A DNA stretch of 64,000 nucleotides, taken from positions 248,001 through 312,000 of the forward strand of contig NZ_JAIZDP010000002.1 in assembly GCF_021554725.1 (NCBI RefSeq), written 5' to 3'. The first letter of the stretch is position 1, and each line of letters opens with the position of its first letter. Of this stretch, positions 7,974 through 25,701 are shown piece after piece. Position numbers and translations under genes: made by a program. This stretch comes from Sinomonas notoginsengisoli. Lineage in GTDB: Bacteria > Actinomycetota > Actinomycetes > Actinomycetales > Micrococcaceae. Under the pieces are notes generated by a model that saw only the letters and a list, made by a program, of their open reading frames with translations, was not told the origin of the DNA and did no database searches.

Positions 7974-9470
7974 CTAAGCTCGCCTCCTCCCTTCAGCCTG
8001 ACCGAGTGCCTTGTACTCAGCGAGCGCGAGGGTGCGCGTCTCGGTCAGGTCGACGCATTCCTCCGGGTACCCGCCGCCCCCCAGCTCGGGGATCCAGGCC
8101 CGAACATAGGTTCCGTCCGGGTCGAACTTCTTCTGCTGGGTGCGGGGGTTGAAGATCCGGAAGAACGGCGCCGCGTCCGCCCCGGATCCCGCGACCCACT
8201 GCCAGTTGAACGGGTTGTTCGCGGCGTCCGCATCCACGAGCGTGTCCCAGAACCACTCCTCGCCGACCCGCCAGTGAATGCCGAGGTTCTTCACGAGCAG
8301 GCTCGCCGAGGCCATCCGGACCCGGTTGTGCATCCAGCCGGTGGCCCACAGTTGACGTTGGCCCGCATCCACGAGCGGGAACCCGGTCCGCCCCCGCCTC
8401 CACGCCTCAAGCAGGCGCCGCGCCTCCCGCTCTCCCCGCACGACGGCGGGTGCCTCCTCCTGCGGGCGGCGCCGGTCGGCGTCGTGCACCGCACCGTGCC
8501 CTGCGCGGGGAAGCCACCAGGGGTAGTCATCGAACTCGGGGCGGAGGTTCTCGGTGGCCAGGTTGGGGCGGTGGTACAGCGTGTGCCAGGCGAACTCCCG
8601 CCACCCGAGCTCGGAGGCGAACACGGCGCTGCCCTCGGGGGCCGCGCGCCGCCGTTCGGCTACGGCATGCCAGACCTGGAAGGGGCTCACGTGCCCCCAC
8701 CGCAGGTAGGGCGAGAGGCGGCTCGTGCCGGGACGCCCGGGAAGGTCCCGGGCCTCAGGGTATTCGGCAAGCGCGCTCTCGGCGGTGTCGGGGCCGAGGA
8801 AGTCAGCCAGGACGGCGAGCCCAGCCTCCTCCCCTGGGACCCACGCCTCGGCCAGCGGCGCGGACCAGTCCGGGTCGTGGGGCAACAGATGCCACGTGGC
8901 GAGATCATCGCTCGCCGGGACGCGTTCCGGCACCGCTCGCTGGCGCTCCGGCGGGGGCAGCGGATGGCGGTGGTCGCGCCTCGAGAGCTCCTTCCAGAAG
9001 GGGGTAAAGACCTTGTAGTGGGTGCCCTGCTGGGTCAGGACGTCCCACGGCTCGTGCAGGAGCGAGGCGTGGAAGCTCTCCGGCTCGCGGCCTGACCTGC
9101 TGACGAGCGCTTTCACCGCCGCATCCGCCCGCCGTTCCGGCCCCCCGTAGCGCCGGTTCCACGCCACGAAGCCTGCGCGGCACTCTTCGGCGACCTCGGG
9201 CACCACACGGGCGGCTGGGCCGCGCCGGAGGACGAGCGGCACGCCGAGCTGCCCGAGCGATGCCGCGAGCTCCTCGAGGGCGTGGTGGAGCCACCATCGG
9301 GCCGCACCGCCGATGGGGCGGATCCCGGGCGACTCCTCGTCGAGGACGTACAGGGCCACCACCCGCCCGCGGGCCTGGGCAGCGCGCAACGCCGGGTTGT
9401 CGCGGACACGGAGATCGTCCCGGAACCACACGAGGGAGGTGGCGCCGGTGCGGCTGCTGGGTTGGGTCAT
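7974..9470 (-). CDS. Cryptochrome/DNA photolyase family protein
   Basis: A 498-residue flavoprotein expected to repair UV pyrimidine dimers with blue light, or to act as a photoreceptor. The N-terminal photolyase domain starts with SLVWFRDDLRVRDNPAL. The C-terminal FAD domain shows TSRLSPYLRWGHVSP, WREFAWHTLYHRP, RTGFPLVDAGQRQLWATGWMHNR and the DADAANNPFNWQW motif typical of CPD photolyases. Between YPWW and LEAWRRGRTG the family normally has a few residues; here about 30 extra residues are present, coded largely by the palindromic element at 8438-8487. ATG 9470 overlaps the crtEb stop (ATGA). Its place in the pigment operon suggests a joint photoprotection response. Confidence 0.92.
   Translation of the reverse strand: MTQPSSRTGATSLVWFRDDLRVRDNPALRAAQARGRVVALYVLDEESPGIRPIGGAARWWLHHALEELAASLGQLGVPLVLRRGPAARVVPEVAEECRAGFVAWNRRYGGPERRADAAVKALVSRSGREPESFHASLLHEPWDVLTQQGTHYKVFTPFWKELSRRDHRHPLPPPERQRAVPERVPASDDLATWHLLPHDPDWSAPLAEAWVPGEEAGLAVLADFLGPDTAESALAEYPEARDLPGRPGTSRLSPYLRWGHVSPFQVWHAVAERRRAAPEGSAVFASELGWREFAWHTLYHRPNLATENLRPEFDDYPWWLPRAGHGAVHDADRRRPQEEAPAVVRGEREARRLLEAWRRGRTGFPLVDAGQRQLWATGWMHNRVRMASASLLVKNLGIHWRVGEEWFWDTLVDADAANNPFNWQWVAGSGADAAPFFRIFNPRTQQKKFDPDGTYVRAWIPELGGGGYPEECVDLTETRTLALAEYKALGQAEGRRRA
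8438..8487. repeat. HDAA palindromic element inside the photolyase gene
   Basis: A 50-bp insert bounded by inverted ends GCACGACGGCG and CGGCGTCGTGC. Its left end shares 24 identical bases (8437-8460) with the left end of the element inside the MFS gene (24926-24949). Read in the photolyase frame it gives A-V-H-D-A-D and EEAPAVVR; the MFS copy gives A-A-H-D-A-A and EEAPAVVR. It falls in a loop where other photolyases have only a few residues. Confidence 0.65.
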
Positions 9471-10381
9471 GGAAGCATCCATACGGAGATGAGCAGGAGC
9501 GTGACGAGGAATCCCGTCACGTAGTTGAGCCAGAGGAAGCGGCGCCATCCTGAGCGGGTGCGCCCCGCGTCGTCATCGGTGACGTTCCAGAACACGGCCG
9601 AGCTGGCAGCGTACGGGAGGGCGAGGACTGCCGCGAAGCGGGCCGGTCCGGACGCCCCGCCCGCGAGTGCCAGAAGGAGCACGCCCGCCACGAGGTAGCC
9701 TGCCACGGCCAGCCGGACGGTGGCCCGCGCCCCGAAGAGGGTCGCGATCGAGCCAATGCCGGCCTCGCGATCCGGGCCGATGTCCTGCACCGCCCCGAAC
9801 GCGTGGCTCGCCATCCCCCACAGGAAGAAGGCCCCGAGGACGGCGAGGGCGATCGGCGTCGCCGCCCCGCCTGCAAGCGCCATCCCATACACGGCGGGTG
9901 AGACGAAGTGGGTGCTGGACGTGACAGAGTCCAGAACCGGGCGCTCCTTGAATCGCAGCCCCGGGACGCTGTACGCCGCGACGGCGAAGAGCGAGACCGC
10001 GAGCACCCCCCAGCTCGCCGGCGGGCCGGCAGCGACGAGCACGACGACGAACGGCACGCACCCGCCCCACGCCCACGCGAGCGCGGCACGGTGCAACGGC
10101 GGCGGCAGCACGGCCCCCTCGGCCCCGCCCTTGCGGGGATTGAGGACGTCGGACGCATAGTCGAAGACGTCGTTGGTGCCGTACATGGCGAGGTTGTAGG
10201 GCACGAGGAAGAACAACGTGCCGACCGCGAGCCTCCAGTCCACTGCCCCGGCGGCGAGGAGGTACGCCGCTGCGAACGGATAGGCCGTGTTCACCCAGGA
10301 CAGCGGCCGGGAGGAGATCAGGAGTGCCCGGGCCAGCCCGGCGGCGGGCCCGGCATGGGTGGGGAGCGAGGCGGCGGTCAC
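9467..10381 (-). CDS. crtEb: Lycopene elongase / UbiA-type prenyltransferase for C50 carotenoids
   Basis: A 304-residue polytopic membrane prenyltransferase. The two Mg2+-diphosphate motifs are visible: NDVFDYASD (about 70-78) and DIGPDREAG (about 199-207), with SSRPLSWVNTAYPF at the N terminus as in CrtEb proteins. In C. glutamicum the enzyme adds dimethylallyl units to lycopene, giving flavuxanthin. The GTG start is coupled to the crtYf stop (GTGA) and the stop is coupled to the photolyase start. Position in crtE-B-I-Ye-Yf-Eb order makes the role secure; the final pigment (decaprenoxanthin or sarcinaxanthin type) is not. Confidence 0.92.
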   Translation of the reverse strand: MTAASLPTHAGPAAGLARALLISSRPLSWVNTAYPFAAAYLLAAGAVDWRLAVGTLFFLVPYNLAMYGTNDVFDYASDVLNPRKGGAEGAVLPPPLHRAALAWAWGGCVPFVVVLVAAGPPASWGVLAVSLFAVAAYSVPGLRFKERPVLDSVTSSTHFVSPAVYGMALAGGAATPIALAVLGAFFLWGMASHAFGAVQDIGPDREAGIGSIATLFGARATVRLAVAGYLVAGVLLLALAGGASGPARFAAVLALPYAASSAVFWNVTDDDAGRTRSGWRRFLWLNYVTGFLVTLLLISVWMLP

Positions 10382-10821
10382 GGGCGCGACCCACTTGCCG
10401 AGCGCCTCATCGCGCGCCTCGCCGGGTGCTTCCGAACGGGCATTCCGTCACGGGTGTCCAGCCCACCGTGTCGGTCACCAGCGTCATCGTCATGCCGTGC
10501 GAGCCGGTGCCACAGGGCCGGGATCAGGAATGCCGCCGCGACCGGGTAGGCGACGTCCTCGACCGGGACGAGGCCGAGCGCGATCCCACTGAGGGCGTGG
10601 GGAGCATAGCCGAAGAGTCCGCTGGCGATCATGGCGTTGTCGAACACCGCCGTGAGCGCCACAAGGACCAGGCCGCTGACGAGAATCGGTACGGGCCGGA
10701 GCCGCTGGCCGCGCTGAAGACCCTGGGGAGTGGTGGGCTGTGTCCGGCGCCGCATGGACGCGAGCACTGTGAGAGCGATCGCCGCCGCGAGGAATACGAC
10801 GTCAAGGGCCAGATAGCTCAT
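10378..10821 (-). CDS. crtYf: C50 carotenoid epsilon-cyclase subunit
   Basis: A 147-residue membrane protein with three to four helices, of the lycopene-cyclase-domain family. The hallmark is a PVEDVAYPV segment after GYAPHALSGIALGLVP, equivalent to the PxE motif of the cyclase family. In C. glutamicum, CrtYe and CrtYf form a heterodimer that closes both ends of flavuxanthin. The last 30 residues are Arg/Asp-rich and polar, longer than needed for the fold. The start overlaps the crtYe stop (ATGA), and the stop overlaps the crtEb start (GTGA), so all are translationally coupled. Confidence 0.9.
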   Translation of the reverse strand: MSYLALDVVFLAAAIALTVLASMRRRTQPTTPQGLQRGQRLRPVPILVSGLVLVALTAVFDNAMIASGLFGYAPHALSGIALGLVPVEDVAYPVAAAFLIPALWHRLARHDDDAGDRHGGLDTRDGMPVRKHPARRAMRRSASGSRP

Positions 10822-11156
10822 GCCGACTCCTTTGCCGCCCGGGTCGCGGGGCGCCGGACGAGGACACGCCTGGCGCCGCTGTAGAGCACGAGCGCGGTGT
10901 AGGAGAAGAAGGCGAGGAAGACGGGCTCCTCGACCGGCATCTCGGGCCCGAGCATCAGTCCAGTCGTGAGCGGCGACGCGCGGTGCTCAAAGATGCCTGC
11001 GGCGATCGCCGCGGCGTCCCACGCGAGGAAGAAGGCCGTCCCCGCGGCGACCGTGAGGGCCGCAGCGCGCGGATCGCGTCCGAACGCGAGCCGGAAGCGC
11101 GCATCGAGGACGGCGACCCCCGAGGCAGAGACCAGCAGGGCGATCAGGTAGGCCAT
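10818..11156 (-). CDS. crtYe: C50 carotenoid epsilon-cyclase subunit
   Basis: A 112-residue membrane protein with three predicted helices and the lycopene-cyclase-domain motif GPEMPVEEPVFLAFFSYTALVLY split around the conserved PVEEP. It is the partner subunit of CrtYf in the heterodimeric cyclase. ATG 11156 lies inside the 3' end of crtI (13-base overlap in another frame), and the stop overlaps the crtYf ATG. Order and sizes match crtYe/crtYf of C. glutamicum and related actinobacteria. Confidence 0.9.
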   Translation of the reverse strand: MAYLIALLVSASGVAVLDARFRLAFGRDPRAAALTVAAGTAFFLAWDAAAIAAGIFEHRASPLTTGLMLGPEMPVEEPVFLAFFSYTALVLYSGARRVLVRRPATRAAKESA

Positions 11157-12922
11157 GGCACCCCTTCAGGCATGTGGGACTCATCCGCCAGGACGTCCGG
11201 GGACGTGCCGCGCCCACCTCTCCGGGTCCGCGTGTGCTCACCCGCCATGTGCGCCTCGTCAAGGGCCCGTGGAGCCGAGGCTGGTCCGGCCAGCGCGGGC
11301 ACCCGTACAGGAACAACGGGTGGCCCCACTGGTCCAGGCCGGCGTTCGCCTCGGACACGCTTGAGCACGAGCTCCGCGCTGATGAGGCACATCGGCACCC
11401 CGATCCCGGGTCGCACCGAGGCACCCGCGTAGAGCAGCCCGGAGACCTTGGAGCTCGCGTTGCCCGGGCGGAGGAAAGCACTCTGCCGGAGGGTGTGGGC
11501 CAGCCCGAGCGCTCCCCCGCGCCACGCATTGACGTCGTGCTCGAAGTCAGCTGGGCCGTAGGTTCGGCGGACAGCAATTCGGTTGACCAAATCAGGGACG
11601 CCGGCCCATGCCGACACCTGGCGGATGGCGGCGTCTGCGACGGACTCGACGGCGGGAGCCCCGGCCCCGCCCACGCCCCCGCGACCCCATGATGGCGCCG
11701 CAGCGGTGGGTACGAGGACAAAAAGGTTCTCGTCTCCGGCGGGCGCGGTGCCCGGATCGGTCGCGCTCGTTCGGGACACATAGATCGACGTGGGGTCCCC
11801 TGGGCTGCGGCCGTCACCGATGCGGGCAAAGTTGTCCTGCCAGTCTCGCGCGAAGAAGAGCGTGTGGTGGGCGAGCTGCGGCAACCGTCCGCGTACGCCG
11901 AGGCACGCCAGCACGGCCCCCGGGCCCGGATCGCGACGATTCCACGACCGCTCGGAGTGGGTCCGGAGGCCCTCGGGAAGGAGCTCCGTCTCAAGGTGGT
12001 GCAGGTCTGCGGCGCCGACGACCGTCGAGACTCCCGTTCGGTGCTCGTGCCCCATGCGGTCGGTCCAGACGACCCCCTCGACCCGTGGACCGCCGGGGGC
12101 CGGCCCGGTGACGATCTGCGTGGCGCGGGCGCCCGTGTGGATCCGTACCCCCGCCGCGCGGGCAAGCCGCTCCATGGCATCGACCAGCGCCGCGAACCCG
12201 CCCTGAGGGTAGAGGACGCCCTGGGTCAGGTCGAGGTGGCTCATCAGCTGATAGAGCGCCGGCGCCCGGTAGGGGGTGGTCCCCAGGAACACGGCCGGGT
12301 AGCCGAGGATCTGCTGCTGTCGCGGGTCCGCAAAGCGCCGCTCGACGCGCTCGTGCAGAGACTGCGCGAGCAGCGCGGCGAGCCGGGCACCTCGGCGGAG
12401 TACTGCGGGGCGGGTGAGGCCTCGGAGGCTGCGGAAGTCGTCATAGAGGAAGTGCTCGAGCGCGACGCCGTATGCCTCCTCGGCCTCATCGAGGTACGTT
12501 CCGAGGGCGGCGCCGGAGCCGGGCCGCAGCGACTCGAAGAGGGCCTCCGCACCCGCCCGTCCCTCGGGCACGTCCACGGGCGCGGCCTGCCCCTCGAAGT
12601 AGACCCGGTACGCCGGGTCGAGACGGGACAGCCGCAATTCCTGCTGTGCGCTCGAGCCCATGAGCCGGAACCAGTGGTCGATCACCTCGGGCATGAGGTA
12701 CCACGAGGGCCCTGTGTCGAAGGCGAAGCCCTCTGACTCCCAGCGGCCCGCGCGGCCGCCGAGGACGTCGTTCTGCTCGAGGAGCCGCACCGCATACCCG
12801 TCCCGGGCCAGAAGCCCTGCCGTGGCGAGCCCGGAGATGCCTCCGCCGATGACGACGACAGTGCGCGATGGCCGCGGCCTGCCCACCATCCGCTCGCGCC
12901 GCCTCCACTCGGGCCGGTTCAT
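11144..12922 (-). CDS. crtI: Phytoene desaturase
   Basis: A 592-residue FAD-dependent oxidoreductase that converts phytoene to lycopene at the membrane. The dinucleotide-binding motif VVVIGGGISGLATAGLLARD is near residue 21, followed by LLEQNDVLGGRAGRW, FDTGPSWYLMPEV and the C-terminal signature GLLYAGASVRPGIGVPM. After this signature there is an unusual polar, Pro/Arg-rich tail of about 80 residues not needed for the fold. ATG 12922 overlaps the crtB stop (ATGA); an upstream extension of the frame inside crtB is not used. The tail runs 13 bases into crtYe. Confidence 0.95.
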   Translation of the reverse strand: MNRPEWRRRERMVGRPRPSRTVVVIGGGISGLATAGLLARDGYAVRLLEQNDVLGGRAGRWESEGFAFDTGPSWYLMPEVIDHWFRLMGSSAQQELRLSRLDPAYRVYFEGQAAPVDVPEGRAGAEALFESLRPGSGAALGTYLDEAEEAYGVALEHFLYDDFRSLRGLTRPAVLRRGARLAALLAQSLHERVERRFADPRQQQILGYPAVFLGTTPYRAPALYQLMSHLDLTQGVLYPQGGFAALVDAMERLARAAGVRIHTGARATQIVTGPAPGGPRVEGVVWTDRMGHEHRTGVSTVVGAADLHHLETELLPEGLRTHSERSWNRRDPGPGAVLACLGVRGRLPQLAHHTLFFARDWQDNFARIGDGRSPGDPTSIYVSRTSATDPGTAPAGDENLFVLVPTAAAPSWGRGGVGGAGAPAVESVADAAIRQVSAWAGVPDLVNRIAVRRTYGPADFEHDVNAWRGGALGLAHTLRQSAFLRPGNASSKVSGLLYAGASVRPGIGVPMCLISAELVLKRVRGERRPGPVGPPVVPVRVPALAGPASAPRALDEAHMAGEHTRTRRGGRGTSPDVLADESHMPEGVPWPT

Positions 12923-13848
12923 GCCGCCCTCCCCTCGAACCCCGCAGCCGACCGCGCGCCGTCGTGCGCAAACGCCGGCCCGGCGCCAGCCAGCACGCCG
13001 GCCGCAAGACGCAGCTTGACGTGGGTGGGGACCCTGATCCGGGTAGTGACGAGGACCTCCGTGGGACACGCGGCGATCCGGGCGGCGAGCTCAGAGAAGA
13101 GGGCGTGGGCGAGGGCGACCGCCCGGCGGGAGGTCCCGGGAAGCAGGCGGAGGCCGGGAAGCGCGGCATCGAGGTCCGTCTGGAGGTCCGCCAAGAGGAT
13201 GCCTTTCTGCTCCTCAGTGATGCTGCTGGGCTCGACGCCCGGAAAGTAGCGGCGCCCGAGCTCCTCGCCGTCCTGCCCGAGGTCTCGGAGGAAGTTGACC
13301 TTCTGGAACGCGGCTCCGAGCCGTCGCGCGGACTCCTCGAGCACGGCGCTCTCGGCGGGGAGGACGGTGAGCCCCGTGAGGAACACGCGCAGGCACATGA
13401 GTCCAACCACCTCGGCCGAGCCGTAGATGTAGGCGCCGAGGGAGTCCTCGGAATGTGCGCGGGGGTCGCAGTCGCGGCGCATCGAGGCGAAGAACGGTTC
13501 GATGAGGTCGGCGCCGATCCCTGCGCGCCTGGCTGTAAGGGCGAACGCGTGGACCACCGGGTTGGTGCTGTACCCGGCTGCGAGGGCAGCCATCGCCTCC
13601 TCCTCGAGTCGCCCGAGCTGGGCGAGGACGGCGTCGACAGAGAGCCCGGCTTCCGCGGCGGCGCCGTCCACCGCCTCGTCCGCGATGCGCACGAGGGCGT
13701 ACAGATTCTCGATGTCCGCTCGCTTCTGCGGCCCGAGCAGACGGCACGCGAGCCCGAATGACGTCGAGTAGCGGCGGATGACGACTGCGGCGCCCGCCAT
13801 TGCCATACCGGAGTAGCGCTCGAGCGGGGAGCCCTGCCGTGTGCCCAT
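12919..13848 (-). CDS. crtB: Phytoene synthase
   Basis: A 309-residue squalene/phytoene synthase that condenses two geranylgeranyl diphosphates. Aspartate-rich substrate motifs are visible as VRIADEAVD (about 52-60) and NFLRDLGQDGEELGR, with YSTSFGLACRLL near the N terminus and IYGSAEVVGLM in the core. The start lies one base after the crtE stop. The last residues read AHDGARSAAG, encoded at 12950-12969 by a close variant of the HDAA element, extending the normal C terminus. Second gene of the operon. Confidence 0.95.
   Translation of the reverse strand: MGTRQGSPLERYSGMAMAGAAVVIRRYSTSFGLACRLLGPQKRADIENLYALVRIADEAVDGAAAEAGLSVDAVLAQLGRLEEEAMAALAAGYSTNPVVHAFALTARRAGIGADLIEPFFASMRRDCDPRAHSEDSLGAYIYGSAEVVGLMCLRVFLTGLTVLPAESAVLEESARRLGAAFQKVNFLRDLGQDGEELGRRYFPGVEPSSITEEQKGILLADLQTDLDAALPGLRLLPGTSRRAVALAHALFSELAARIAACPTEVLVTTRIRVPTHVKLRLAAGVLAGAGPAFAHDGARSAAGFEGRAA
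12950..12969. repeat. Partial HDAA element in the crtB 3' end
   Basis: On the minus strand these 20 bases match the arm of the MFS-gene element (core GCGCACGACG, then CGC and CGGTC) at 18 of 20 positions. They encode A-H-D-G-A-R in the CrtB tail. Only this short portion is recognisable, so it may be a decayed copy or chance similarity. Confidence 0.4.
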
Positions 13849-13849
13849 G

Positions 13850-14956: not shown

Positions 14957-14973
14957 GAGGTCCTCCTTCAGGA

Positions 14974-15037
14974 TTCTCGTTTTCTTGATGTCTCGCTTAT
15001 CGAGATTTATGATCGTCGAGAACGGTGTGGAAGTAAA
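14974..15037. promoter_or_regulatory. Divergent crt / TspO-like promoter with nested dyad operator
   Basis: Rightward promoter: TTGATG (14985-14990), 17-base spacer, TATGAT (15008-15013). Leftward promoter toward crtE: TTTACT (15037-15032), 17-base spacer, GATCAT (15014-15009); the two -10 boxes overlap. A dyad centred at 14998 combines an inner palindrome TCTCG-N5-CGAGA (14991-15005) with outer arms TTCTCG (14974-14979) and CGAGAA (15017-15022), each 11 bases from the inner arms. Its inner part fills the rightward spacer. A repressor bound here would block both promoters; the MarR protein of the operon is the obvious candidate. Confidence 0.7.
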
Positions 15038-17474: not shown

Positions 17475-19743
17475 GGCGCGATGGGTCCGATGGCTGCTCC
17501 CCGTGGGCCTCGTGGCCGTATGGTTCGCGCTGAGCGGCTTCGGCGGACCCACCTTCGGCAAGCTCTCCTCGGTCTCGAGCAATGACCAGGCATCGTTCCT
17601 GCCAGCAAGCGCGGAATCGACTGAGGTAAGGGCCTGGCAGGAGAAGTTCACCGCATCGAACGCGATTCCTGCGCTCGTGGTCGTGGAGAAGGACTCGCCA
17701 CTCAACCCGTCAGATCTTGCGGCCTTGGGCACCCTCTCGGGGAAGCTGAGTGCGGTCGAAGGGGTGGCTGCGCCCCCGGCAGGGGCGGCGTCGAGTGTCG
17801 CAGGGCCAATCCCCTCGAAGGATGGACTCGCTGCGCAATTCGTGGTCCCGATCGCGGACAGCGGGCGGTTGCGGGCCGTCGTCGCCTCGTTGCGCAATGC
17901 GGCCGCCGGGGTGCCCGACGGGATGAGGGCCTACGTGACGGGACCGGCTGGGCTGACGGCAGACCTCGTCTCGGCCTTCGGAGGGATCGATGGGATCCTG
18001 CTGCTCGTGGCGGGCGGCGCAGTCTTCGTGATCCTTGCCCTCGTCTACCGTTCGGTTGTCCTGCCGTTCGTGGTCCTCTTCGCCGCGGTCGCCGCCCTGT
18101 GCGGGGCTGTCCTCGCGGTGTACTGGCTGGCGCGCGCGGGATGGATCACCCTCAATGGGCAGAGCCAGGGCATCCTGTCGATCCTCGTGATCGGCGCCGC
18201 GACCGACTACGCCCTGCTCCTCGTGGCCCGCTACCGTGAGGCCCTCCATACCGTCGAGTCTCGGTGGGAGGCGATGCGCCGCGCCTGGCGGGCGGCCTTC
18301 GAACCCATCCTCGCCTCGGGGGCGACCGTGATCCTCGCCCTCCTGTGCCTCCTCTTCTCAGACCTGAACTCGAATCGGAGCCTAGGCCCGATCGCCGCTG
18401 TGGGCATCGGCTTCTCCCTGCTGTCCTCGCTCACGTTGCTGCCCGCCCTGCTCGTGCTCTTCGGACGGTCTGCGTTCTGGCCCCTGCGGCCCGCGCACGA
18501 CGCCGCGCACTCACCTGCGCGGCACACCGCACCGAGCGCGTGGGCCGCCGACTCCGCCAACGGCGCGAGTGGCCTCGAGGGAGTCCGTGGAGTGTGGCGC
18601 CGTGTCGGGACGCTCATCTCCCGCCGACCGCGGATCACGTGGGTCGCGGCGCTTGTGCTGCTCGTCCTCGGAGTGGCCGGCCTGCCCCAGCTCAAGGCCA
18701 ACGGAGTCGAGCAGACGCAGCTCGTCCTCACTGCCACGGACTCCGTGGCCGGCCAGAAGACCCTCGCGAGGCACTTCGACGCCGGCTCGGGCAGCCCTCT
18801 GGCGATCGTGGCCTCTGAGAGCACTGCTGATGCGGTCCTGAAGAAGGTCCAGGAGACGCCCGGGATTGCTTCCGCGGCCGTGTACACCGGGGCCGCGCGT
18901 CCCGGACCCGGCGCCCCGGGCGCTCCGGCGAGCGGCGCCGTCGTGCGCGACGGGCGGGTGCTCATCAACGCCGTGCTCGCGAATCAGCCCGACTCCCCCG
19001 AGGCCGAGCGCACGGTGACGGACCTCCGCTCCTCGCTGGACGCCGCCGACCCCGGCGCGCTCGTGGGCGGAGTGACCGCAATTGCCCTGGACACGAACGT
19101 GACCGCGCAGACCGACCTGCGCAAGATCATCCCGTTAGTCCTCGGGGTGATCCTCCTGGTGCTGATCCTGCTGCTGCGCTCGCTCGTGGCGCCGCTGATC
19201 CTCATCGGGTCCGTGGTGCTCTCGTACGCCGCCGCCCTCGGGGTCTCCGCGCTCGTGTTCAATAACGCCTTCGGGTTCCCCGGGGCCGATGCGACGGTAC
19301 CCTTGTTCGGTTTCGTGTTCCTCGTGGCCCTGGGCGTGGACTACAACATCTTCCTCATGACCCGGGTGCGGGAGGAGTCGCTCGCCCACGGCACGCGGCC
19401 CGGGATCCTGCGGGGCCTCGCCCTGACCGGAGGGGTGATCACGTCTGCGGGCGTCGTCCTCGCGGCGACGTTCGCCGCGCTGGGCGTCATCCCCATCCTG
19501 TTCCTCGTGCAGATCGCGTTCATCGTGGCGTTCGGCGTGCTCCTGGACACCGTGGTGGTGAGGTCCCTGCTCGTCCCGGCCGTGGCCTACGACCTCGGCC
19601 GTGCGATCTGGTGGCCGTCCCGCCTGGCATCGCAGGGACATGACCCCTCACCCCAGGGACATGACCCCTCACCCCAGGGACATGACCCCTCACCGCGGTC
19701 CGGGGCGAGCCTCACTCGGCAGTCTGCTTCGCCCAGAGGTTGA
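17464..19743 (+). CDS. MMPL-family (RND superfamily) transporter
   Basis: A 759-residue membrane exporter with two repeats of one plus five helices. Typical segments are SILVIGAATDYALLLVARYRE in the first half (proton-relay TM4) and FVFLVALGVDYNIFLMTRVRE in the second. Such proteins export lipids or related hydrophobic molecules. In C. glutamicum an MMPL gene lies within the crt operon; here it is in the divergent operon. Residues about 344-350 contain A-H-D-A-A encoded by the 14-mer core at 18493. The C terminus carries QGHDPSP three times, encoded by array B. The gene overlaps the convergent aldo/keto reductase by 32 bases. Confidence 0.9.
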   Translation: MTRRARWVRWLLPVGLVAVWFALSGFGGPTFGKLSSVSSNDQASFLPASAESTEVRAWQEKFTASNAIPALVVVEKDSPLNPSDLAALGTLSGKLSAVEGVAAPPAGAASSVAGPIPSKDGLAAQFVVPIADSGRLRAVVASLRNAAAGVPDGMRAYVTGPAGLTADLVSAFGGIDGILLLVAGGAVFVILALVYRSVVLPFVVLFAAVAALCGAVLAVYWLARAGWITLNGQSQGILSILVIGAATDYALLLVARYREALHTVESRWEAMRRAWRAAFEPILASGATVILALLCLLFSDLNSNRSLGPIAAVGIGFSLLSSLTLLPALLVLFGRSAFWPLRPAHDAAHSPARHTAPSAWAADSANGASGLEGVRGVWRRVGTLISRRPRITWVAALVLLVLGVAGLPQLKANGVEQTQLVLTATDSVAGQKTLARHFDAGSGSPLAIVASESTADAVLKKVQETPGIASAAVYTGAARPGPGAPGAPASGAVVRDGRVLINAVLANQPDSPEAERTVTDLRSSLDAADPGALVGGVTAIALDTNVTAQTDLRKIIPLVLGVILLVLILLLRSLVAPLILIGSVVLSYAAALGVSALVFNNAFGFPGADATVPLFGFVFLVALGVDYNIFLMTRVREESLAHGTRPGILRGLALTGGVITSAGVVLAATFAALGVIPILFLVQIAFIVAFGVLLDTVVVRSLLVPAVAYDLGRAIWWPSRLASQGHDPSPQGHDPSPQGHDPSPRSGASLTRQSASPRG
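18493..18506. repeat. HDAA element core in the MMPL gene
   Basis: The 14-base core GCGCACGACGCCGC is followed by GCACTCACC, close to the arm that follows the same core in the MFS-gene copy. It encodes PAHDAAHSPAR in the polar loop between the two halves of the transporter, where length is not conserved. Confidence 0.5.
19633..19695. repeat. Three near-identical 21-bp direct repeats (array B)
   Basis: Units at 19633-19653, 19654-19674 and 19675-19695 are identical except for the last base of the third. The core is AGGGACATGACCCCTCAC. In the MMPL frame each unit encodes seven residues (QGHDPSP), so the array extends that protein without a frameshift. It lies where MMPL and the aldo/keto reductase genes converge. 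Confidence 0.9.
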
Positions 19744-20749
19744 CGCCGGAATCGACGGCGTGCTGGTCGATGACGTTCAGCTCCGCCACCGTGAGGGGCG
19801 GCCCCGCGAGCGCGTCGAGGTTGGTGTCGAGCTGCTCGACGGAGGAGGCCCCGATGACCGCGGACGTCACGCGCGGGTCCCGCAGTGCCCACTGGAGGGC
19901 GAGCTGGGCGAGCTTCTGACCGCGGCTCTGGGCGATGCGGTTGAGCTCGCGGACGTGGTCCAGCGTGCGCTCGTCGAGGTGGTCGGACTTGATCGTGGAG
20001 CCCTCCCGGGCGGCGCGCGAGTCCTCGGGGATGCCCCTGAGGTAGCGGTCGGTGAGGACTCCCTGGGCGAGGGCCGTGAAGACGATGCACCCCATGCCCT
20101 GCGCGGCCAGCTCGTCGAGGAGGTCGGCCTCGATCCACCGGTTCAGCATCGAGTAGGAGGGCTGGTGGATGAGCAGCGGCGTGCCCAGGTCCCGGGCGAT
20201 CTCGGCCGCCTCGCGGGTCTTCGCCGCCGAATAGGACGAGATCCCCACATACAGCGCCCGGCCGGAGCGGACTGCGGCGTCGAGGGCCATCATGGTCTCC
20301 TCGATAGGTGTCTCCGGATCGAACCGGTGGCTGTAGAAGATGTCCACGTAGTCGAGGCCGAGCCGTTTGAGGGACTGGTCGATGCTCGCCAGCACGTACT
20401 TGCGGGACCCGCCGCCCTGTCCGTAGGGGCCGGGCCACATGTCCCACCCGGCCTTGGTGGAGATGATGAGCTCATCCCGGTACGGTGCGAAGTCATCCTT
20501 CAGGTAGCGGCCCATGTTCTCTTCGGCGCGGCCGTAGGGCGGGCCGTAGTTGTTCGCGAGGTCGAAGTGGGTGACGCCGCGGTCGAACGCCCTTCGAAGG
20601 ATGGCCCGCTGGGTCTCCTTCGGCCGGTCCTTGCCGAAGTTCTGCCACATCCCGAGCGAGAGGGCGGGCAGCTTGAGCCCGCTCCTGCCTGTGAAGCGGT
20701 ACTCCATGGTGTCGTAGCGGTTCTCGGCTGCCGTATAGGTCATCCCCAC
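19712..20749 (-). CDS. Aldo/keto reductase, L-glyceraldehyde 3-phosphate reductase-like
   Basis: A 345-residue (beta/alpha)8-barrel NADPH-dependent reductase. Catalytic tetrad residues are seen in FDLANNYG (Asp, Tyr), STKAGWDMWPGPYGQGGG (Lys) and YSHRFDPETP (His). The TKAGW...GPYGxGGSRKY region and VIGASSVEQLD are the signature of the YghZ/GPR group, which reduces L-glyceraldehyde 3-phosphate or methylglyoxal. ATG 20749 gives the standard length. Monocistronic, convergent with MMPL, with the 21-bp array at the junction. Confidence 0.9.
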   Translation of the reverse strand: MGMTYTAAENRYDTMEYRFTGRSGLKLPALSLGMWQNFGKDRPKETQRAILRRAFDRGVTHFDLANNYGPPYGRAEENMGRYLKDDFAPYRDELIISTKAGWDMWPGPYGQGGGSRKYVLASIDQSLKRLGLDYVDIFYSHRFDPETPIEETMMALDAAVRSGRALYVGISSYSAAKTREAAEIARDLGTPLLIHQPSYSMLNRWIEADLLDELAAQGMGCIVFTALAQGVLTDRYLRGIPEDSRAAREGSTIKSDHLDERTLDHVRELNRIAQSRGQKLAQLALQWALRDPRVTSAVIGASSVEQLDTNLDALAGPPLTVAELNVIDQHAVDSGVNLWAKQTAE

Positions 20750-20805
20750 AGCCTACGGGGGCTGGCCACGACGCGCCCCACCCTGCTCAACCATGATCCC
20801 CATCG

Positions 20806-21711
20806 TCAGCGGCGCAGCACTTCTGCGGCGCGCACCATCGCGTCGCCGACCTCCGCGAGTCCCGGCGAGTCGAGGGTCCATGACTGCCAGTACAGCTCGA
20901 GGTCCTCGCTCCATGAGGGGTCCAGCTCCACGAGCAGCCCGTCCGGGTCCTGCTGGTCCGGAACCATGCCCCACCCGAGCCCGGCCCATACGGCCTCGAC
21001 GTACTGCACCGAGTCGGGGATGAAGTGCTGTGGCGGCGTTGCCTCCGGCGCAACGCGTGCCAGGAGCGCGAGCTGGTGGCTGTCCTTGCGGTCGTACTGC
21101 ATCACCGGAGCGGCCGCGAGCGCCTCGGGCGTCGCCCCCGAGGGGAACCACCGCGCCACGAACTCGGCCGAGGCCTTGGCCCTGTACACCATCGTCCCCA
21201 GCGGCCGCACGCTGCACCCCTGCACCGGCCGCGGGTCCGCCGTCACTGCCCCGACGGCATCCCCGGAGCGCAGCAGGTCGGCGGTCGCGTGCTCGTCGTC
21301 GCGGAGAAGCTCGACGGCGATCCGTCCTCCCAGCGCGACCTCGCGGATCGCGTGCGGCAGCCAGGTGGCGATCGAGTCCGCGTTGGCCACGATCGGCACC
21401 CGCAGCCGCTCGGTGCCGGCGCCGCCCTCGTAACCCGGCCCGGCGGCGTCGTGCGCGTGGTCCGAACGGAGGGCGAGCAGCGCCTCGTCGGCGAGCAGGA
21501 GCAGCTGGCGTGCCGAGCGCAGGAGCCGCTCCCCCGCAGGCGTGGGCACCACGGGCTTGAGGCGCCGGACCAGAACGCTGCCCACGCTGCGTTCGAGTGC
21601 CTTGATCCGCTGGCTCACGGCGGAAGGCGTGATCCGCAACTCATCCGCGGCGGCCTCGAACGTCTCCTGGTCCACGACGGCGGCCAGCGCCCGCAGCTGC
21701 TCCAAGTCCAT
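20806..21711 (-). CDS. lysG: LysR family regulator of the ArgP/LysG type
   Basis: A 301-residue LysR-type activator. The HTH is residues 1-60 (LEQLRALAAVVDQETFEAAA, ITPSAVSQRIKALERSVG) and the effector domain starts with RVPIVANADSIATWL, the signature of LysG/ArgP proteins that sense lysine or arginine. Divergent to the LysE exporter, as in C. glutamicum. The hinge contains an insert HAHDAAGPGYEGGAG, encoded by an HDAA core (21443-21456). TAGAAT (21723-21718) ends six bases before the ATG and there is no ribosome-binding site, suggesting a leaderless mRNA. Confidence 0.88.
   Translation of the reverse strand: MDLEQLRALAAVVDQETFEAAADELRITPSAVSQRIKALERSVGSVLVRRLKPVVPTPAGERLLRSARQLLLLADEALLALRSDHAHDAAGPGYEGGAGTERLRVPIVANADSIATWLPHAIREVALGGRIAVELLRDDEHATADLLRSGDAVGAVTADPRPVQGCSVRPLGTMVYRAKASAEFVARWFPSGATPEALAAAPVMQYDRKDSHQLALLARVAPEATPPQHFIPDSVQYVEAVWAGLGWGMVPDQQDPDGLLVELDPSWSEDLELYWQSWTLDSPGLAEVGDAMVRAAEVLRR
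21443..21456. repeat. HDAA element core in the lysG gene
   Basis: The reverse complement of these bases is the exact 14-mer GCGCACGACGCCGC. It encodes A-H-D-A-A in the hinge between the HTH and the effector-binding domain, where related regulators are shorter. Confidence 0.5.
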
Positions 21712-21745
21712 GAAAAGATTCTAATGGAGGCTGAAAATGGGTTAG

Positions 21746-21774
21746 TTGATCTTCATATATTCGACCCGTACCGT
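21746..21774 (+). promoter_or_regulatory. lysE promoter, leaderless
   Basis: TTGATC (21746-21751), 17-base spacer, TACCGT (21769-21774), then six bases to the GTG start at 21781. The distance places the transcription start at or next to the start codon. LysG would be expected to bind just upstream, in the AT-rich stretch shared with its own promoter. Confidence 0.5.
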
Positions 21775-21780
21775 CGAAGA

Positions 21781-22386
21781 GTGTTCCTCTCCTACCTCGC
21801 CGGCCTCGGCGCGAGCTTGGGCCTCATTGTGGCGATCGGCGCTCAGAACGCGTTCGTGCTCCGACAGGGGATCAAACGCGAATGGGTGCTGGCCGTGGTG
21901 CTCGTGTGCGCCGCCAGCGACGCCATGCTCATCTTCTCCGGCGTCGCAGGGATCGGAGCCGTGGTGCAGGGGGCGCCGGCAGTCCTGCAGGTGATCCGTT
22001 GGGTGGGCGTTGCCTTCCTCGTGGCGTACGGGTTCTTCGCGGCAAAACGCGCACTGCGTCCCGGCACGCTGCACGCCGCCGAGGGCCGCGGCAACGGCAC
22101 ACTGTGGGCCACGCTCGGCACCGCCCTCGCGCTCACCTGGCTCAACCCGCACGTGTACCTCGACACGCTCGTGCTCCTCGGCTCGCTGGCCAATGCCCAG
22201 GGAGACGGCCGCTGGGCCTTCGGTGCCGGTGCCGCGACCGCGAGCGCCGTCTGGTTCCCCACCATCGGCTACGGGGCCCGGGCCCTGAGCGGCTTCTTCG
22301 CGCGCCCGGCCGCATGGCGGGTGCTGGACGGGTTCGTGGCCGCGCTCATGGTCAGCCTCGCGGCGATGCTCACCTTCAGTGGGTGA
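21781..22386 (+). CDS. lysE: LysE/ArgO family amino-acid exporter
   Basis: A 201-residue inner-membrane exporter with six hydrophobic segments. Near the N terminus GLIVAIGAQNAFVLRQGIKR is the LysE/ArgO signature, and TWLNPHVYLDTLVLLGS is the conserved Asn-Pro motif of the fifth region. Members export lysine or arginine when these accumulate, induced by the adjacent LysG/ArgP. GTG 21781 is used: it begins the family N terminus (VFLSYLAGLGASLG) and sits six bases after a -10 box. The upstream frame is antisense to lysG and not coding. Confidence 0.92.
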   Translation: MFLSYLAGLGASLGLIVAIGAQNAFVLRQGIKREWVLAVVLVCAASDAMLIFSGVAGIGAVVQGAPAVLQVIRWVGVAFLVAYGFFAAKRALRPGTLHAAEGRGNGTLWATLGTALALTWLNPHVYLDTLVLLGSLANAQGDGRWAFGAGAATASAVWFPTIGYGARALSGFFARPAAWRVLDGFVAALMVSLAAMLTFSG

Positions 22387-22531
22387 TCCACGGCAAGCCG
22401 CTGTCGAAGCGCACGGGCGCATCGGCCTGCGGCGCACCGTGGGCCGCAGGCCGGCGGCCCTCCTGGCTGCTTGCCATCCTCGGGACGGGGTAAGCACGCG
22501 GTATGAGTGCCCCACGACCAAGGAGGAAGCC

Positions 22532-23107
22532 GTGACCGCAGTTCCCGCAGGGCCTACCGAGCCGGACGTCGTCTCCATCCTCACGCGAGACCACCAAGAC
22601 ATGGTGGACCTGATAGAGACTATCGAGGAGGCCGGCGATCCAGCCCGTCGTCGCGATCTGGCGGACACCGTGATCGCCGAAGTGATGCGCCACGCCGTCG
22701 CCGAGGAGATGTACGTGTACCCCGCCATGGAGAAGCACATCCCCAACGGGACCGAAGAGGTCGAGCACGACAAGGGCGAGCACGCCGAACTCGTGCACCT
22801 CATGAAGCAGCTCGAGGCAGTCGACGCGGCGAACGCCGGGTTCATGCCGCTCGTCCAGGAGCTCGAGGAGAAGCTGCGCCACCACGCCCATGACGAGGAG
22901 TCCGAGCAGTTCCCGAAGCTGCGCGCCCACATCCCATACGACGATCTCGTCGAGATGGGCAAGAAGGTCGAGGGCGCCAAGAAGCTCGCCCCCACCCGCC
23001 CGCACCCGCACGCGCCGCACTCCGAGCTGTTCCACAAAACGGTGGGACCCGGCGTGGGAATGGTGGACCGCCTGCTGGACAAGCTCAGCGGACGTCACAC
23101 GGGCTGA
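22532..23107 (+). CDS. Hemerythrin domain protein
   Basis: A 191-residue cytosolic protein with a hemerythrin/HHE four-helix bundle for a di-iron centre. Ligand residues appear in RDHQDMVDLIE, MRHAVAEEMYVYP, DKGEHAELVHLM and HHAHDEESEQFP, in the usual order. Members in actinobacteria bind oxygen or peroxide or respond to oxidative and nitrosative stress. The tail HPHAPHSELFHK is His-rich. The GTG start has AGGAGG at 22521-22526. It stands alone and converges on the lactonase gene across array C. Confidence 0.9.
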   Translation: MTAVPAGPTEPDVVSILTRDHQDMVDLIETIEEAGDPARRRDLADTVIAEVMRHAVAEEMYVYPAMEKHIPNGTEEVEHDKGEHAELVHLMKQLEAVDAANAGFMPLVQELEEKLRHHAHDEESEQFPKLRAHIPYDDLVEMGKKVEGAKKLAPTRPHPHAPHSELFHKTVGPGVGMVDRLLDKLSGRHTG

Positions 23108-23120
23108 ACGGCCCCTTCAG

Positions 23121-23183
23121 AAAGCCTGGACCACCCGCCGACAAGCCCGGACTACCCGCCGGAAAGTTCGGACTACCCGGTGG
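23121..23183. repeat. Array of three 21-bp units at a convergent gene junction (array C)
   Basis: Units at 23121-23141, 23142-23162 and 23163-23183 share the core CGGACTACCCGCCG (first unit TGGACCACCCGCCG, third CGGACTACCCGGTG) preceded by AAG. The third unit contains the stop codon of the minus-strand lactonase. The core sequence differs from arrays A and B, but copy number and period are the same. Confidence 0.75.
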
Positions 23184-24228
23184 CCATGGGGCCGCACTCA
23201 ATCCAGAGCGGCCCCGAGCTGGTCCGCGCCCCGGACGCCTCTGACAGGGCCCCGTCCTGGTCGATCCGGTATGCCGTCACGTGATGCGAACCCTCGCCGG
23301 CCACCAGCAGGAACTGGCTGGAGGGGTCCACGGCCGTTCCGCACGGCTGATTCTCGGTCTCGATGCGGCCCAGGAACTCGAGCAGGCCCTCCCCGCGCAC
23401 CGCGAACCCTGCCACGGTGCTGGTGGAGCGCTCGGTCACGTACACGAAGCGCTCGTCGGGGGTGAGGCGCAGGTCAGCTGCCCAGATGACGTGCGGCCCC
23501 GGATCCGGCCTCTCGGCCGAGCGCACCTCGCCCGGCGCCAGGTCCAGCCCTTGGACGGCGGAAACGTGTTGGAGCAGGCTGAGCCGGCCTGTCTCGGCAG
23601 ACCGCTCGTAGACCGCGACCTCACCGGAAAGCTCGTGCACCACGTAGGCACGGTCGCCGGCCCGGTTCAGCCGGATGTACCTTGGCCCGGAGCCCTGCTC
23701 CGCGGCGACGTGGCCGCTCGGGGAGGTCGCGGCGTCGTGCGCCGCCTCCCCTAGACCGGACGGATCGAGCGCGAACCAGCTCACCCGGTCGTCGCCGAGG
23801 GAGGTCGCATAGAGGAACTGGCCGTCAGGGCTGACCACCGCACAGTGCGTGTTTCGCCCAGTCTGATAGGTGTGCACCGCGCCCGGCCTGCCCGGCAGGG
23901 GAACCAGGTCGAGCCGCCCTTCCCCGTACGATGCGCTGAACAGCGCGTCACCGCCCGGCGCCAGCGTGATGAAGCACGTCGAGGCCGGGAGCTTGCGCGC
24001 CTGGCCCTCCCCGCCGCCGTCCGCAGGGAGCACGACGACGCGCGGCGGCTCGCCGTTGCACGCGGCGCTAAGCGTGCCATCGGGACCGAAGGCAAGGGCG
24101 GCCACGCCGTCGAGCCCGGTGTGCCGGGTGAGCGGCTCGAGCTTGCCGCTCGCGGTATGGAGCGCGAGGAGGTCGACGGCGCCGGCTCCGGCGCAGGCGA
24201 TGGCGACGAGGGTTCGCTGGTCGGTCAC
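23173..24228 (-). CDS. Lactonase family protein (6-phosphogluconolactonase-type beta-propeller)
   Basis: A 351-residue seven-bladed beta-propeller of the cycloisomerase-2/YbhE family. Blade motifs repeat roughly every 45-50 residues: LAFGPDGTLSAACN, ALFSASYGEGRLD, VVSPDGQFLYATSLGDDRVS, RLTPDERFVYVTERS and VDPSSQFLLVAGEGSHH. Members hydrolyse 6-phosphogluconolactone or other lactones. Between two blades an extra segment EAAHDAATSPSG is encoded around the HDAA core at 23729. The GTG start is the only one giving the first blade (VAIACAGAGAVDLL). Convergent with hemerythrin. Confidence 0.8.
   Translation of the reverse strand: MTDQRTLVAIACAGAGAVDLLALHTASGKLEPLTRHTGLDGVAALAFGPDGTLSAACNGEPPRVVVLPADGGGEGQARKLPASTCFITLAPGGDALFSASYGEGRLDLVPLPGRPGAVHTYQTGRNTHCAVVSPDGQFLYATSLGDDRVSWFALDPSGLGEAAHDAATSPSGHVAAEQGSGPRYIRLNRAGDRAYVVHELSGEVAVYERSAETGRLSLLQHVSAVQGLDLAPGEVRSAERPDPGPHVIWAADLRLTPDERFVYVTERSTSTVAGFAVRGEGLLEFLGRIETENQPCGTAVDPSSQFLLVAGEGSHHVTAYRIDQDGALSEASGARTSSGPLWIECGPMATG
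23729..23742. repeat. HDAA element core in the lactonase gene
   Basis: Exact reverse complement of GCGCACGACGCCGC, followed on the coding strand by GACCTCCCCGAGCG, which matches most positions of the corresponding arm in the MFS-gene copy (CCGGTCACCCGAGCG). It encodes A-H-D-A-A-T-S-P in an inter-blade loop. Confidence 0.5.
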
Positions 24229-24303
24229 GGGCGGTCCGCCTTCCGGTGGGAGGTGTGTCCCCCGGTCCTACCCCGAACTCCCGCGCCGCACACGCAAGAG
24301 GCC

Positions 24304-25701
24304 TCAGCCCACGAGCGCAGGCCGGTTCCGCGGCAGGAAGAACAGGCTCGCGGCGGCCGCGAAGCACAGCGCTGCTGCGGAAATCCATGCCGCCAGGTAC
24401 GTCCCGGTCGCCTCACGGCCCCATCCAGCAAGGAACGCACCCACCCCGGCGCCCACCATGTGCGAGGCGAACACCCATCCGAACACCACCGAGCTCCTCG
24501 CCGCCCCGAAGTACTCGCGGCACAGCGCCACGGTGGGTGGAACGGTCGCGACCCAGTCGAGGCCGTAGAACACGATGAAGATCCACAGCGGCGGCTCGAC
24601 GTCCGGCCCGAGCAGCGCGTTGACCGTCAGCAGCGAGGCTCCGCGCAGCGCGTAGTACGCGACGAGCAGGATCCAGGGGCGCATGCGGTCGGTGAGCCAC
24701 CCGGAAGCGACGGTGCCGATCACGTCGAAGACGCCGATGAGCGCGAGGAGCCCCGAGGCAGTGGTGGGTGGCATGCCATGATCGTGGGCGGCGGGGATGA
24801 AGTGGGTCTGCATGAGCCCGTTGGTGCTCCAGCCGCACACCCAGAACGTGAAGAGCAGGATCCAGAACGGGCGCGAGCGCAGCGATTCGCGGAGCACCGC
24901 GAGCGCCTCGGCGGCTGCGTTCCGGCGCACGACGGCGGGTGCCTCCTCCCGCTGGGCCGGCGCCTCGCGCTCGGGTGACCGGGCGGCGTCGTGCGCTGCT
25001 TCCGTTCCCGCGCCATCAGTGCCAGCAGCGCCAACAGCGTCAACAGGGGCGGTGCCGTAGGGGGCGAGGCCCACCTCGGCGGGCGAGTTCGCGAACGGCC
25101 ACGCGAGCAGGGGCACGATCGCGAGCGCGAACACCGCGACGAGCAGAGCGGCGGTCCGCCAGCCCTCGTGAGCGGCCAGGTGCACCACGACGGGCAGGAA
25201 CACGAGCTGCCCGCACGCGTTCGCCGCTGAGAAGAAGCCCATGACGAGGCCCCGCCGCTGAGCGAACCACCGGTTCGCCACGACAGCGCCGAAGACGAGC
25301 GCGAGCATGCCCGTCCCGACCCCGATGAACGCCCCCCACAGGGCCCACAGCTGCCACGCGGCCGTCATGACGGTGGTCAGCGCGCTCCCCGCCGCGACCA
25401 GCAGGAGGGCCGCGGCCACAACCTTGCGCAGCGTGAACCGCTCCATGAGCACCGCGGCGAACGGCGCGACGAGCCCGTAGATGACGAGGTTCGCGGTCAC
25501 GGCGCCGGACGTCTCGGCGCGCGTCCAGCCGAACTCGGCCTCGAGCGGCTCGAACAGAGCGCCGGTGGTCGAGCGGAACGCGGCCGCGGCCACGAGGGCG
25601 AGCAGGGTCACTGCGGCGACGAGCCATGCGCGGTGCGGCCCGCCACGCAGGGCTACGCGCACGGCGCCGCGCGCCCGGGTCTGCTGGGATGTCTCGGTCA
25701 T
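24304..25701 (-). CDS. MFS transporter, oxalate/formate antiporter-like
   Basis: A 465-residue transporter with twelve predicted helices. The N-terminal half has TTGALFEPLEAEFGWTRAET and FSAANACGQLVFLP, typical of the OFA/monocarboxylate branch; the second half shows FWVCGWSTNGLMQTHFIP and DVIGTVASGWLTDR. The central cytoplasmic loop is about 70 residues, Ala/Glu-rich, and contains the full-length HDAA element (24927-24994). ATG 25701 overlaps the stop of the upstream SRPBCC-like gene (ATGA), so the two form an operon. Substrate unknown; an organic anion is likely. Confidence 0.85.
   Translation of the reverse strand: MTETSQQTRARGAVRVALRGGPHRAWLVAAVTLLALVAAAAFRSTTGALFEPLEAEFGWTRAETSGAVTANLVIYGLVAPFAAVLMERFTLRKVVAAALLLVAAGSALTTVMTAAWQLWALWGAFIGVGTGMLALVFGAVVANRWFAQRRGLVMGFFSAANACGQLVFLPVVVHLAAHEGWRTAALLVAVFALAIVPLLAWPFANSPAEVGLAPYGTAPVDAVGAAGTDGAGTEAAHDAARSPEREAPAQREEAPAVVRRNAAAEALAVLRESLRSRPFWILLFTFWVCGWSTNGLMQTHFIPAAHDHGMPPTTASGLLALIGVFDVIGTVASGWLTDRMRPWILLVAYYALRGASLLTVNALLGPDVEPPLWIFIVFYGLDWVATVPPTVALCREYFGAARSSVVFGWVFASHMVGAGVGAFLAGWGREATGTYLAAWISAAALCFAAAASLFFLPRNRPALVG
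24927..24994. repeat. Full-length HDAA palindromic element in the MFS gene
   Basis: A 68-bp insert bounded by GCACGACGGCG on the left and GCGGCGTCGTGC on the right, forming inverted ends. The left end and its flank share 24 identical bases with the photolyase copy. The right end holds the 14-mer core. In the MFS frame it reads AAHDAARSPEREAPAQREE followed by APAVVR, in the large loop between helices six and seven. Confidence 0.7.

Follow-up and report, generated by a model that had tools for sequence, protein, structure and literature searches.

A 12-bp DNA word conserved throughout the genomes of one Sinomonas clade and its possible role as a DNA uptake sequence

Introduction

Six genes of unrelated function in a 64-kb stretch of the Sinomonas notoginsengisoli genome (contig NZ_JAIZDP010000002.1, positions 248,001 to 312,000; hereafter the window) carry copies of one short sequence within their coding frames. 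An earlier reading of this stretch (the original prediction) took the copies for a mobile palindromic element of 50-70 bp inserted in frame, comparable to the rickettsial palindromic elements (RPEs). The question raised by the locus is whether these copies were inserted or arose in place, and what keeps them there. Here we describe their common unit, the 12-mer CGCACGACGSCG, which is a genome-wide DNA word kept at the DNA level in one Sinomonas clade, and consider its possible role in DNA uptake.

The repeated unit and its abundance

The 14-mer on which the original prediction was built, GCGCACGACGCCGC, occurs exactly at 18493 on the plus strand and at 21443, 23729 and 24983 on the minus strand, with near-matches at 8476 (two mismatches) and 12956 (one mismatch), and the two longer copies at 8438-8487 and 24927-24994 are as described, having 24 bases in common at their left ends (8437-8460 and 24926-24949). 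The host genes are also those named, encoding a photolyase, an SQS_PSY protein (CrtB), an MMPL protein, a LysR-type regulator, a lactonase and an MFS protein. The reading A-H-D-A-A is exact in four of the six (MMPL, LysR-type, lactonase and MFS), and the other two read A-H-D-G-A (CrtB) and V-H-D-A-D (photolyase). When up to two mismatches were allowed, the window held 29 matches to the 14-mer, whereas 100 dinucleotide shuffles averaged 6.6 with a maximum of 14, and the whole genome contains 64 copies of it, compared with 2 of the same word read backwards. The description of a word repeated across the genome and lying in coding loops and tails of unrelated genes was correct, and the word is confined to close relatives. 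A palindromic unit of 50-70 bp did not hold up: the unit common to the copies is the 12-mer, and most copies are single. The window contains 12 exact copies of the 12-mer (Table 1), of which those at 6301, 18936, 30069, 33679 and 60775 had been overlooked; copies in other frames are read as A-V-V-R (6301, 8437, 18936 and 24926) or A-R-R (60775).

In the whole S. notoginsengisoli genome there are 514 copies of CGCACGACGSCG, 251 and 263 on the two strands, respectively. Detailed counts were made in samples of 464 kb from this genome (window included), 520 kb from G002, 320 kb from G013, 220 kb from G010 and 120 kb each from G003, G004 and G009 (G numbers denote the genomes compared), in which genes were called by a simple home-made rule (GC content by codon position) and not by annotation; a pooled k-mer count over the relatives was dominated by shared orthologous DNA and was set aside. 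The top-scoring 12-mers in the samples of S. notoginsengisoli, G002, G003 and G004 contain or overlap CGCACGACGSCG, the exceptions being parS words and ATCATCGCCACG in S. notoginsengisoli and poly-C words in G002. The one-mismatch neighbours in the S. notoginsengisoli sample show a nearly invariant core, CGACG.CG, and more permissive edges, with substitutions such as C to A at position 1 (12 copies), C to G at position 3 (14), A to T at position 4 (9) and G to C (25) or to A (8) at position 10.

Of the 74 copies in the same sample, 54 are coding and 20 non-coding. Coding copies are found in all six frame and strand settings, mostly in two, read as A-H-D-A/G or A/G-V-V-R. Their number far exceeds the expectation from codon usage (about 6), as the original prediction required of its own sequence: 6.1 copies were expected when the protein was fixed and codons were shuffled (largest of 50 shuffles, 11) and 5.8 when codons were shuffled within genes (largest, 14). 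Markov models yielded 0.3-0.5 copies for the non-coding DNA, and the sampled coding DNA of the motif-rich clade described below contains 168 copies against 22.6 expected. An artefact of codon usage is ruled out by these synonymous shuffles and by the conservation of third codon positions.

Distribution among genomes and replicons

The photolyase locus has its closest named matches in Sinomonas, placing the window in that genus. Among 118 genomes, nine Sinomonas genomes (including S. notoginsengisoli) possess 387-892 copies of CGCACGACGSCG and six other Sinomonas genomes 49-116, and the largest count outside the genus is 161 (G096). A further 394 genomes were sampled from the class, with S. notoginsengisoli as the sole Sinomonas, and all others among them contain 124 copies or fewer. 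The Sinomonas atrocyanea group (G005, G009 and G013), with 387-445 copies, lies below most of the rich genomes. In a tree of 13 genomes based on 1594 columns from four open frames, which does not include G008 and G012, the five motif-poor genomes form one group (clade B) with a support of 1.000, and midpoint rooting places the eight motif-rich genomes in the other (clade A, hereafter the rich clade). A de novo search for words in G010, a member of clade B, revealed a mild excess of CGCCGTCGTC-type words only (56 vs 19) and no clear second dialect. A mild excess of CGCCGTCGTCC-type words (24 vs 4.6) was seen in the same genome, possibly representing a weak related word.

A plasmid of S. atrocyanea (82 kb, of which 80 kb was read) contains no strict copy, compared with 26 in 320 kb of its chromosome. 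Low-GC genes also contain none, but only 0.25 were expected from their codons, which is too few to weigh. Sites are absent from the low-GC stretches L129 (polysaccharide-type genes) and L299 (transposase, STAND NTPase and Mrr genes), as they are from some stretches of normal GC content. L129 (G000:C1:800001-820000) encodes three DUF6541 proteins beside a gene for a GlfT2-like galactofuranosyltransferase and an ABC-2 transporter.

Conservation between orthologues

When 120 kb from each of five rich-clade relatives and 84 kb of S. notoginsengisoli DNA were compared, 127 of 261 orthologue pairs retained the complete word; the corresponding figures were 88 of 645 for permuted words of equal composition and 97 of 705 for random places. 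Identity was 0.87 across the 12 columns and 0.70 and 0.67 in the eight-column flanks on either side, compared with 0.80 at random places; CGCACGACGSCG therefore sits in weakly conserved surroundings yet is itself conserved. The pairs are not independent, as one site is counted from several genomes, and sites for which no alignment qualified are not counted (104 of 146 were aligned in the 261-pair set and 108 in the 272-pair set described below); totals vary slightly between comparisons because the rules for span and gaps were set separately for each. When the alignment was made with the motif masked and gaps within 15 bp were disallowed, 82 of 134 pairs were identical against 100 of 794 for permuted words, which rules out the sliding of alignments onto the motif.

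Conservation acts on the DNA and not only on the protein. Identity at codon position 3 was 0.90 within the motif, as against 0.65 in the near flank, 0.67 in the far flank and 0.65 in control words, and positions 1-2 of the near flank were less conserved (0.75) than in the controls (0.83 and 0.88). Among non-coding orthologue pairs, 23 of 59 were identical, compared with 3 of 113 controls.

Turnover by substitution

Of 272 orthologue pairs from rich-clade genomes, 132 showed the word unchanged and 66 showed substitutions with no gap within 6 bp; in a further 26 the substitutions were accompanied by a nearby gap, and in 48 a gap removed part of the word. In none of the 272 was the word missing as one clean gap. 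Among rich-clade CrtB and MMPL orthologues there are some of equal length with and some without the word at the site, and a lactonase orthologue of clade B (G011) is of equal length and lacks the exact residues. An insertion element is largely ruled out by these equal-length orthologues, the absence of clean gaps and the predominance of single copies, and the use of all six frame and strand settings likewise does not agree with the in-frame insertion originally proposed.

The variation in length at the sites first noted is nevertheless real, although the comparison provides no support for the word itself being the insert. Between its anchor residues, the photolyase loop spans 14-34 residues in clade B, whereas most rich-clade genomes have 37-54 and G004 has 25; the CrtB tail is shorter by 8-14 residues in four of the five clade B genomes (about 10 in G011) and by 6 in the fifth; and the LysR-type and MFS loops differ in length among orthologues. 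Because the gap comparison covered the rich clade only, it is blind to gains older than that clade, and an old gain in length at its base is possible at the photolyase, CrtB, LysR-type and MFS sites. The photolyase locus of G009 (L100) contains a 24-bp tandem duplication that includes the motif, so that G-A-H-D-A-G-R-G is repeated in the loop.

Facing pairs and position in the genome

The 282 copies in samples of six genomes include 17 neighbour pairs less than 60 bp apart, of which 16 are facing, 1 is tandem and none is back-to-back; neighbours more than 120 bp apart are of mixed orientation. GCACGACG..CGTCGTGC is the top inverted 8-mer pair of all in the 464-kb sample (11 vs 1.1 expected). 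The folding energies of the 16 facing pairs range from -22.7 to -66.4 kcal/mol; 7 of the pairs are called coding, and several of the 9 non-coding ones are located 7-38 bp past a called stop codon. In the S. notoginsengisoli sample, 9 of the 54 coding sites and 5 of the 20 non-coding ones have a facing partner within 100 bp. Most sites (250 of 282) lie outside any facing pair closer than 60 bp. Among 246 copies from S. notoginsengisoli, G002, G003 and G004, 200 lie away from the end of a stretch and lack an exact partner within 60 bp; a near-complete inverted copy (11 of 12 bases) follows 11 of these and precedes 1, indicating that few single copies look like decayed hairpins.

The density of the word is 0.149 per kb in coding DNA (198 sites) and 0.253 per kb in non-coding DNA (84 sites). 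By gene orientation, for which 78 of the 84 non-coding sites could be classed, it is 0.40 per kb between convergent genes (27 in 66.8 kb), 0.26 between co-directional genes (44 in 171.0 kb) and lowest, at 0.12 per kb, between divergent genes (7 in 58.0 kb). In G002, a single contig, the word occupies at least 100 places on the plus strand (among the matches listed, all within the first 843 kb), and 16 of 20 spaced 20-kb stretches hold at least one copy. No replichore bias was detected in these 20 stretches, with 31 copies on the leading and 36 on the lagging strand when the origin is taken to lie near contig position 0, as synteny with the parS cluster of S. notoginsengisoli suggests; the parS word is absent from the two end stretches of G002. 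The parS cluster, four copies of GTTTCACGTGAAAC at 297-2700 of L135 (G000:C12:350001-370000), puts the probable replication origin nearby, at a distance of some 40-100 kb from the window.

Competence and pilus genes

In S. notoginsengisoli, genes for ComEA-type and ComEC proteins are located side by side, together with a gene for the DNA polymerase III delta subunit, and both comE genes are also present in G010 of clade B. The genome also contains a tad-like (tad/flp) cluster, in which genes were named from their order and similarity, and TadE from the search given next. ComEC was found in 27 of 28 genomes searched and TadE in all 28 (27 over the cut-off). These genes therefore permit a role in DNA uptake but do not single out the rich clade.

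Table 1. Copies of CGCACGACGSCG and its close variants in the 64-kb window
Feature	Position	Strand	Remark
Exact CGCACGACGSCG copy	6301..6312	+	Within minus-strand open frame, read G-A-V-V-R
Exact CGCACGACGSCG copy, left arm of facing pair, loop of photolyase gene	8437..8448	+	Read A-P-A-V-V-R; loop shorter in clade B orthologues
One-mismatch copy TGCACGACGCCG, right arm of photolyase pair	8477..8488	-	
Exact CGCACGACGSCG copy, CrtB C-terminal tail	12957..12968	-	Rich-clade orthologues of same length carry or lack the word
Exact CGCACGACGSCG copy, MMPL gene	18494..18505	+	Read A-H-D-A-A
Exact CGCACGACGSCG copy, MMPL gene	18936..18947	-	Read G-A-V-V-R
Exact CGCACGACGSCG copy, variable segment of LysR-type regulator gene	21444..21455	-	Read A-H-D-A-A
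Exact CGCACGACGSCG copy, lactonase gene	23730..23741	-	
Exact CGCACGACGSCG copy, left arm of facing pair, MFS gene	24926..24937	+	
Exact CGCACGACGSCG copy, right arm of MFS pair	24984..24995	-	
Exact CGCACGACGSCG copy, in open frame	30069..30080	-	Read A-H-D-A
Exact CGCACGACGSCG copy	33679..33690	-	
Facing pair of one-mismatch copies CGGACGACGSCG	57930..57963	.	
Exact CGCACGACGSCG copy	60775..60786	+	

Discussion

The leading explanation, in which our confidence is evenly balanced, is that CGCACGACGSCG works like the DNA uptake sequences (DUSs) of the Neisseriaceae and the uptake signal sequences (USSs) of the Pasteurellaceae and owes its spread to biased uptake with subsequent recombination. 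In this scheme, the competence machinery (comEA-comEC and the tad/flp-like pilus) would prefer DNA bearing the word, and the homologous DNA taken up would be recombined into the chromosome, so that copies born by point mutation would be favoured and restored. Copies would accumulate where the protein sequence tolerates them, in loops and tails, and in intergenic DNA, and facing pairs form hairpins that probably double as transcription terminators.

The traits of known uptake sequences compared here are those described in PMC12616744, PMC7811141 and PMC5031613. All but one of the traits that can be examined in sequences are found in the Sinomonas word: its number, occurrence on both strands, a core with tolerant edges, change by point mutation, location in weakly constrained segments, hairpin pairs, clade limits and the presence of competence genes. 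The exception is scarcity in newly acquired DNA, for which the plasmid gives a mixed picture (no strict copy but a raised core 9-mer) and the low-GC genes carry no weight. As in DUSs, a word of about 12 nt is present in many copies with an essential inner core and clade dialects (PMC3630211), and inverted pairs of DUSs have a terminator role (PMC12616744) that is putative here. The Sinomonas word differs in having another sequence and fewer copies and in residing in an actinobacterial host with a tad/flp-like cluster, for which no ComP-like receptor is known. USSs arise by point mutation and not by insertion, which the absence of clean gaps in Sinomonas parallels, and are under-represented in constrained coding DNA (PMC7811141), just as the density of CGCACGACGSCG is lower in coding DNA. 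The sequence, phylum and machinery are all different from those of the Pasteurellaceae.

Micrococcus luteus belongs to the same family as Sinomonas. This actinobacterium undergoes Flp-pilus-dependent transformation and possesses comEA, comEC and tad/flp genes; an enriched uptake word is not described in the excerpted text (PMC6370729), which sets it apart from Sinomonas.

Several points weigh against an uptake role. The role is read from traits of the sequence, and one literature search on each point found no paper on natural transformation in Sinomonas or on an uptake word in the competent relative M. luteus. The tad and comE genes are common to clade B, which is poor in the word, and ComEC matches were also obtained in 10 of 14 control genomes. 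A comparison of the tad open frames of S. notoginsengisoli and G004 with eight other stretches revealed no pilus gene specific to clade A, and no receptor was found. The copy density of about 94-202 per Mb is below the thousands per genome of the Neisseriaceae, and a weaker excess exists outside the rich clade (7 copies vs 2.1 expected in clade B coding DNA). On the S. atrocyanea plasmid, the only one analysed, no more than about 3.6 strict copies were expected after scaling for composition, and the core 9-mer ACGACGGCG is raised both there (13 vs 5.25) and on the chromosome (94 vs 29.6). With no receptor found and clade B possessing the same machinery, we hold the uptake explanation no more firmly than stated above. 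The fuller proposal is that clade A performs sequence-specific natural transformation with its own 12-letter tag read by a tad/flp-pilus machine, and that self-DNA recognition thereby arose independently for a third time and for the first time in Gram-positive bacteria; it is more tentative and falls somewhat short of even confidence.

The main alternative, which we regard as unlikely, is that CGCACGACGSCG serves as the binding site for a protein that organises the chromosome, or for another DNA-binding protein acting genome-wide, and is kept by site-wise selection. Such a site would account for the DNA-level conservation at orthologous coding and non-coding places, the sharp 12-bp edge of that conservation, the spread over the chromosome (16 of 20 stretches in G002) and the lack of strict copies on the single plasmid analysed. 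However, the word is rarest between divergent genes and is therefore hardly a promoter site, and the facing pairs at hairpin spacing are unexpected for a plain binding site. Unlike Chi or the FtsK-orienting polar sequences (KOPS), it has no replichore strand bias, and a Chi/KOPS-type site is ruled out on this ground (31 vs 36 in 20 stretches of G002, with the origin placed by synteny). No 12-bp site of this kind with 500-900 copies is known to us in Actinobacteria, although no search aimed at one was made.

It is improbable that CGCACGACGSCG is a repeat similar to HIP1 of cyanobacteria, raised and kept by DNA methylation with a linked mismatch repair bias. Like HIP1, it is a short, highly repeated and lineage-specific word (PMC4390886) that varies in frequency by clade and occurs in both coding and non-coding DNA, and the rise of its core 9-mer on the plasmid would fit a process of this kind. 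HIP1 is, however, an 8-bp palindrome tied to the methyltransferases that read it (PMC4390886), whereas CGCACGACGSCG is a non-palindromic 12-mer. A mutational process should also reach plasmids, but the one plasmid has no strict copies, and the facing pairs would be left unexplained.

The mobile palindromic element of the original prediction, similar to RPEs or to CGTC-tagged repetitive extragenic palindromes (REPs) and inserted in frame, is very improbable. Both known groups are short hairpins, some lying in frame and often in loops (PMC3733652), and the strong hairpins of Sinomonas, with 7 of 16 close facing pairs called coding, resemble them; compared with most of clade B, the rich clade has a longer photolyase loop and a longer CrtB tail, the LysR-type and MFS loops vary in length, and the L100 photolyase loop shows a 24-bp tandem gain. 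RPEs and REPs are inserted palindromes, however, whereas the Sinomonas copies are mostly single and combine a conserved 12-bp core with weak conservation on either side; orthologues differ by substitution, some of the same length having the word and others lacking it, and none of the 272 rich-clade pairs shows a clean gap.

Least probable of all, and contradicted as a full explanation, is that facing pairs are ordinary intrinsic terminators and singles by-products of codon usage. The folding of the 16 pairs (-22.7 to -66.4 kcal/mol), some 7-38 bp past a called stop, and a codon-usage yield of about 6 of the 54 coding copies fit this view, but it leaves unexplained the other 48 or so, the conserved third positions and the 250 of 282 sites outside close facing pairs.

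Tags for the uptake of self-DNA have so far been reported in two other bacterial families. If CGCACGACGSCG acts as an uptake sequence, it would be a third case, in another phylum and with another type of pilus, suggesting that self-DNA recognition evolved again; it would offer a fresh test of the molecular-drive theory, for which clade B, with its few copies, is a ready-made control, and would predict transformable soil bacteria. Should the uptake explanation prove wrong, a 12-mer preserved unchanged at many orthologous sites is still a functional DNA element with no known reader.

Other repeated words and records

Runs of poly-C/G are far over-represented in G002 (CCCCCCCCCCCC, 57 vs 0.1 expected) and are perhaps phase-variable tracts. 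The S. atrocyanea group is enriched in TGGCGCGCCA (10 vs 0.6 in G013 and 8 vs 0.6 in G009), and G013 also in GACGCGGGGTCA (10 vs 0.2). Among the matches to the photolyase, which are mostly from Micrococcaceae and Microbacteriaceae, is a protein 54% identical to the query on WNZI01000032.1 (L191), a record titled Vibrio cholerae strain 35D, which is probably a contaminant contig or carries a wrong label.

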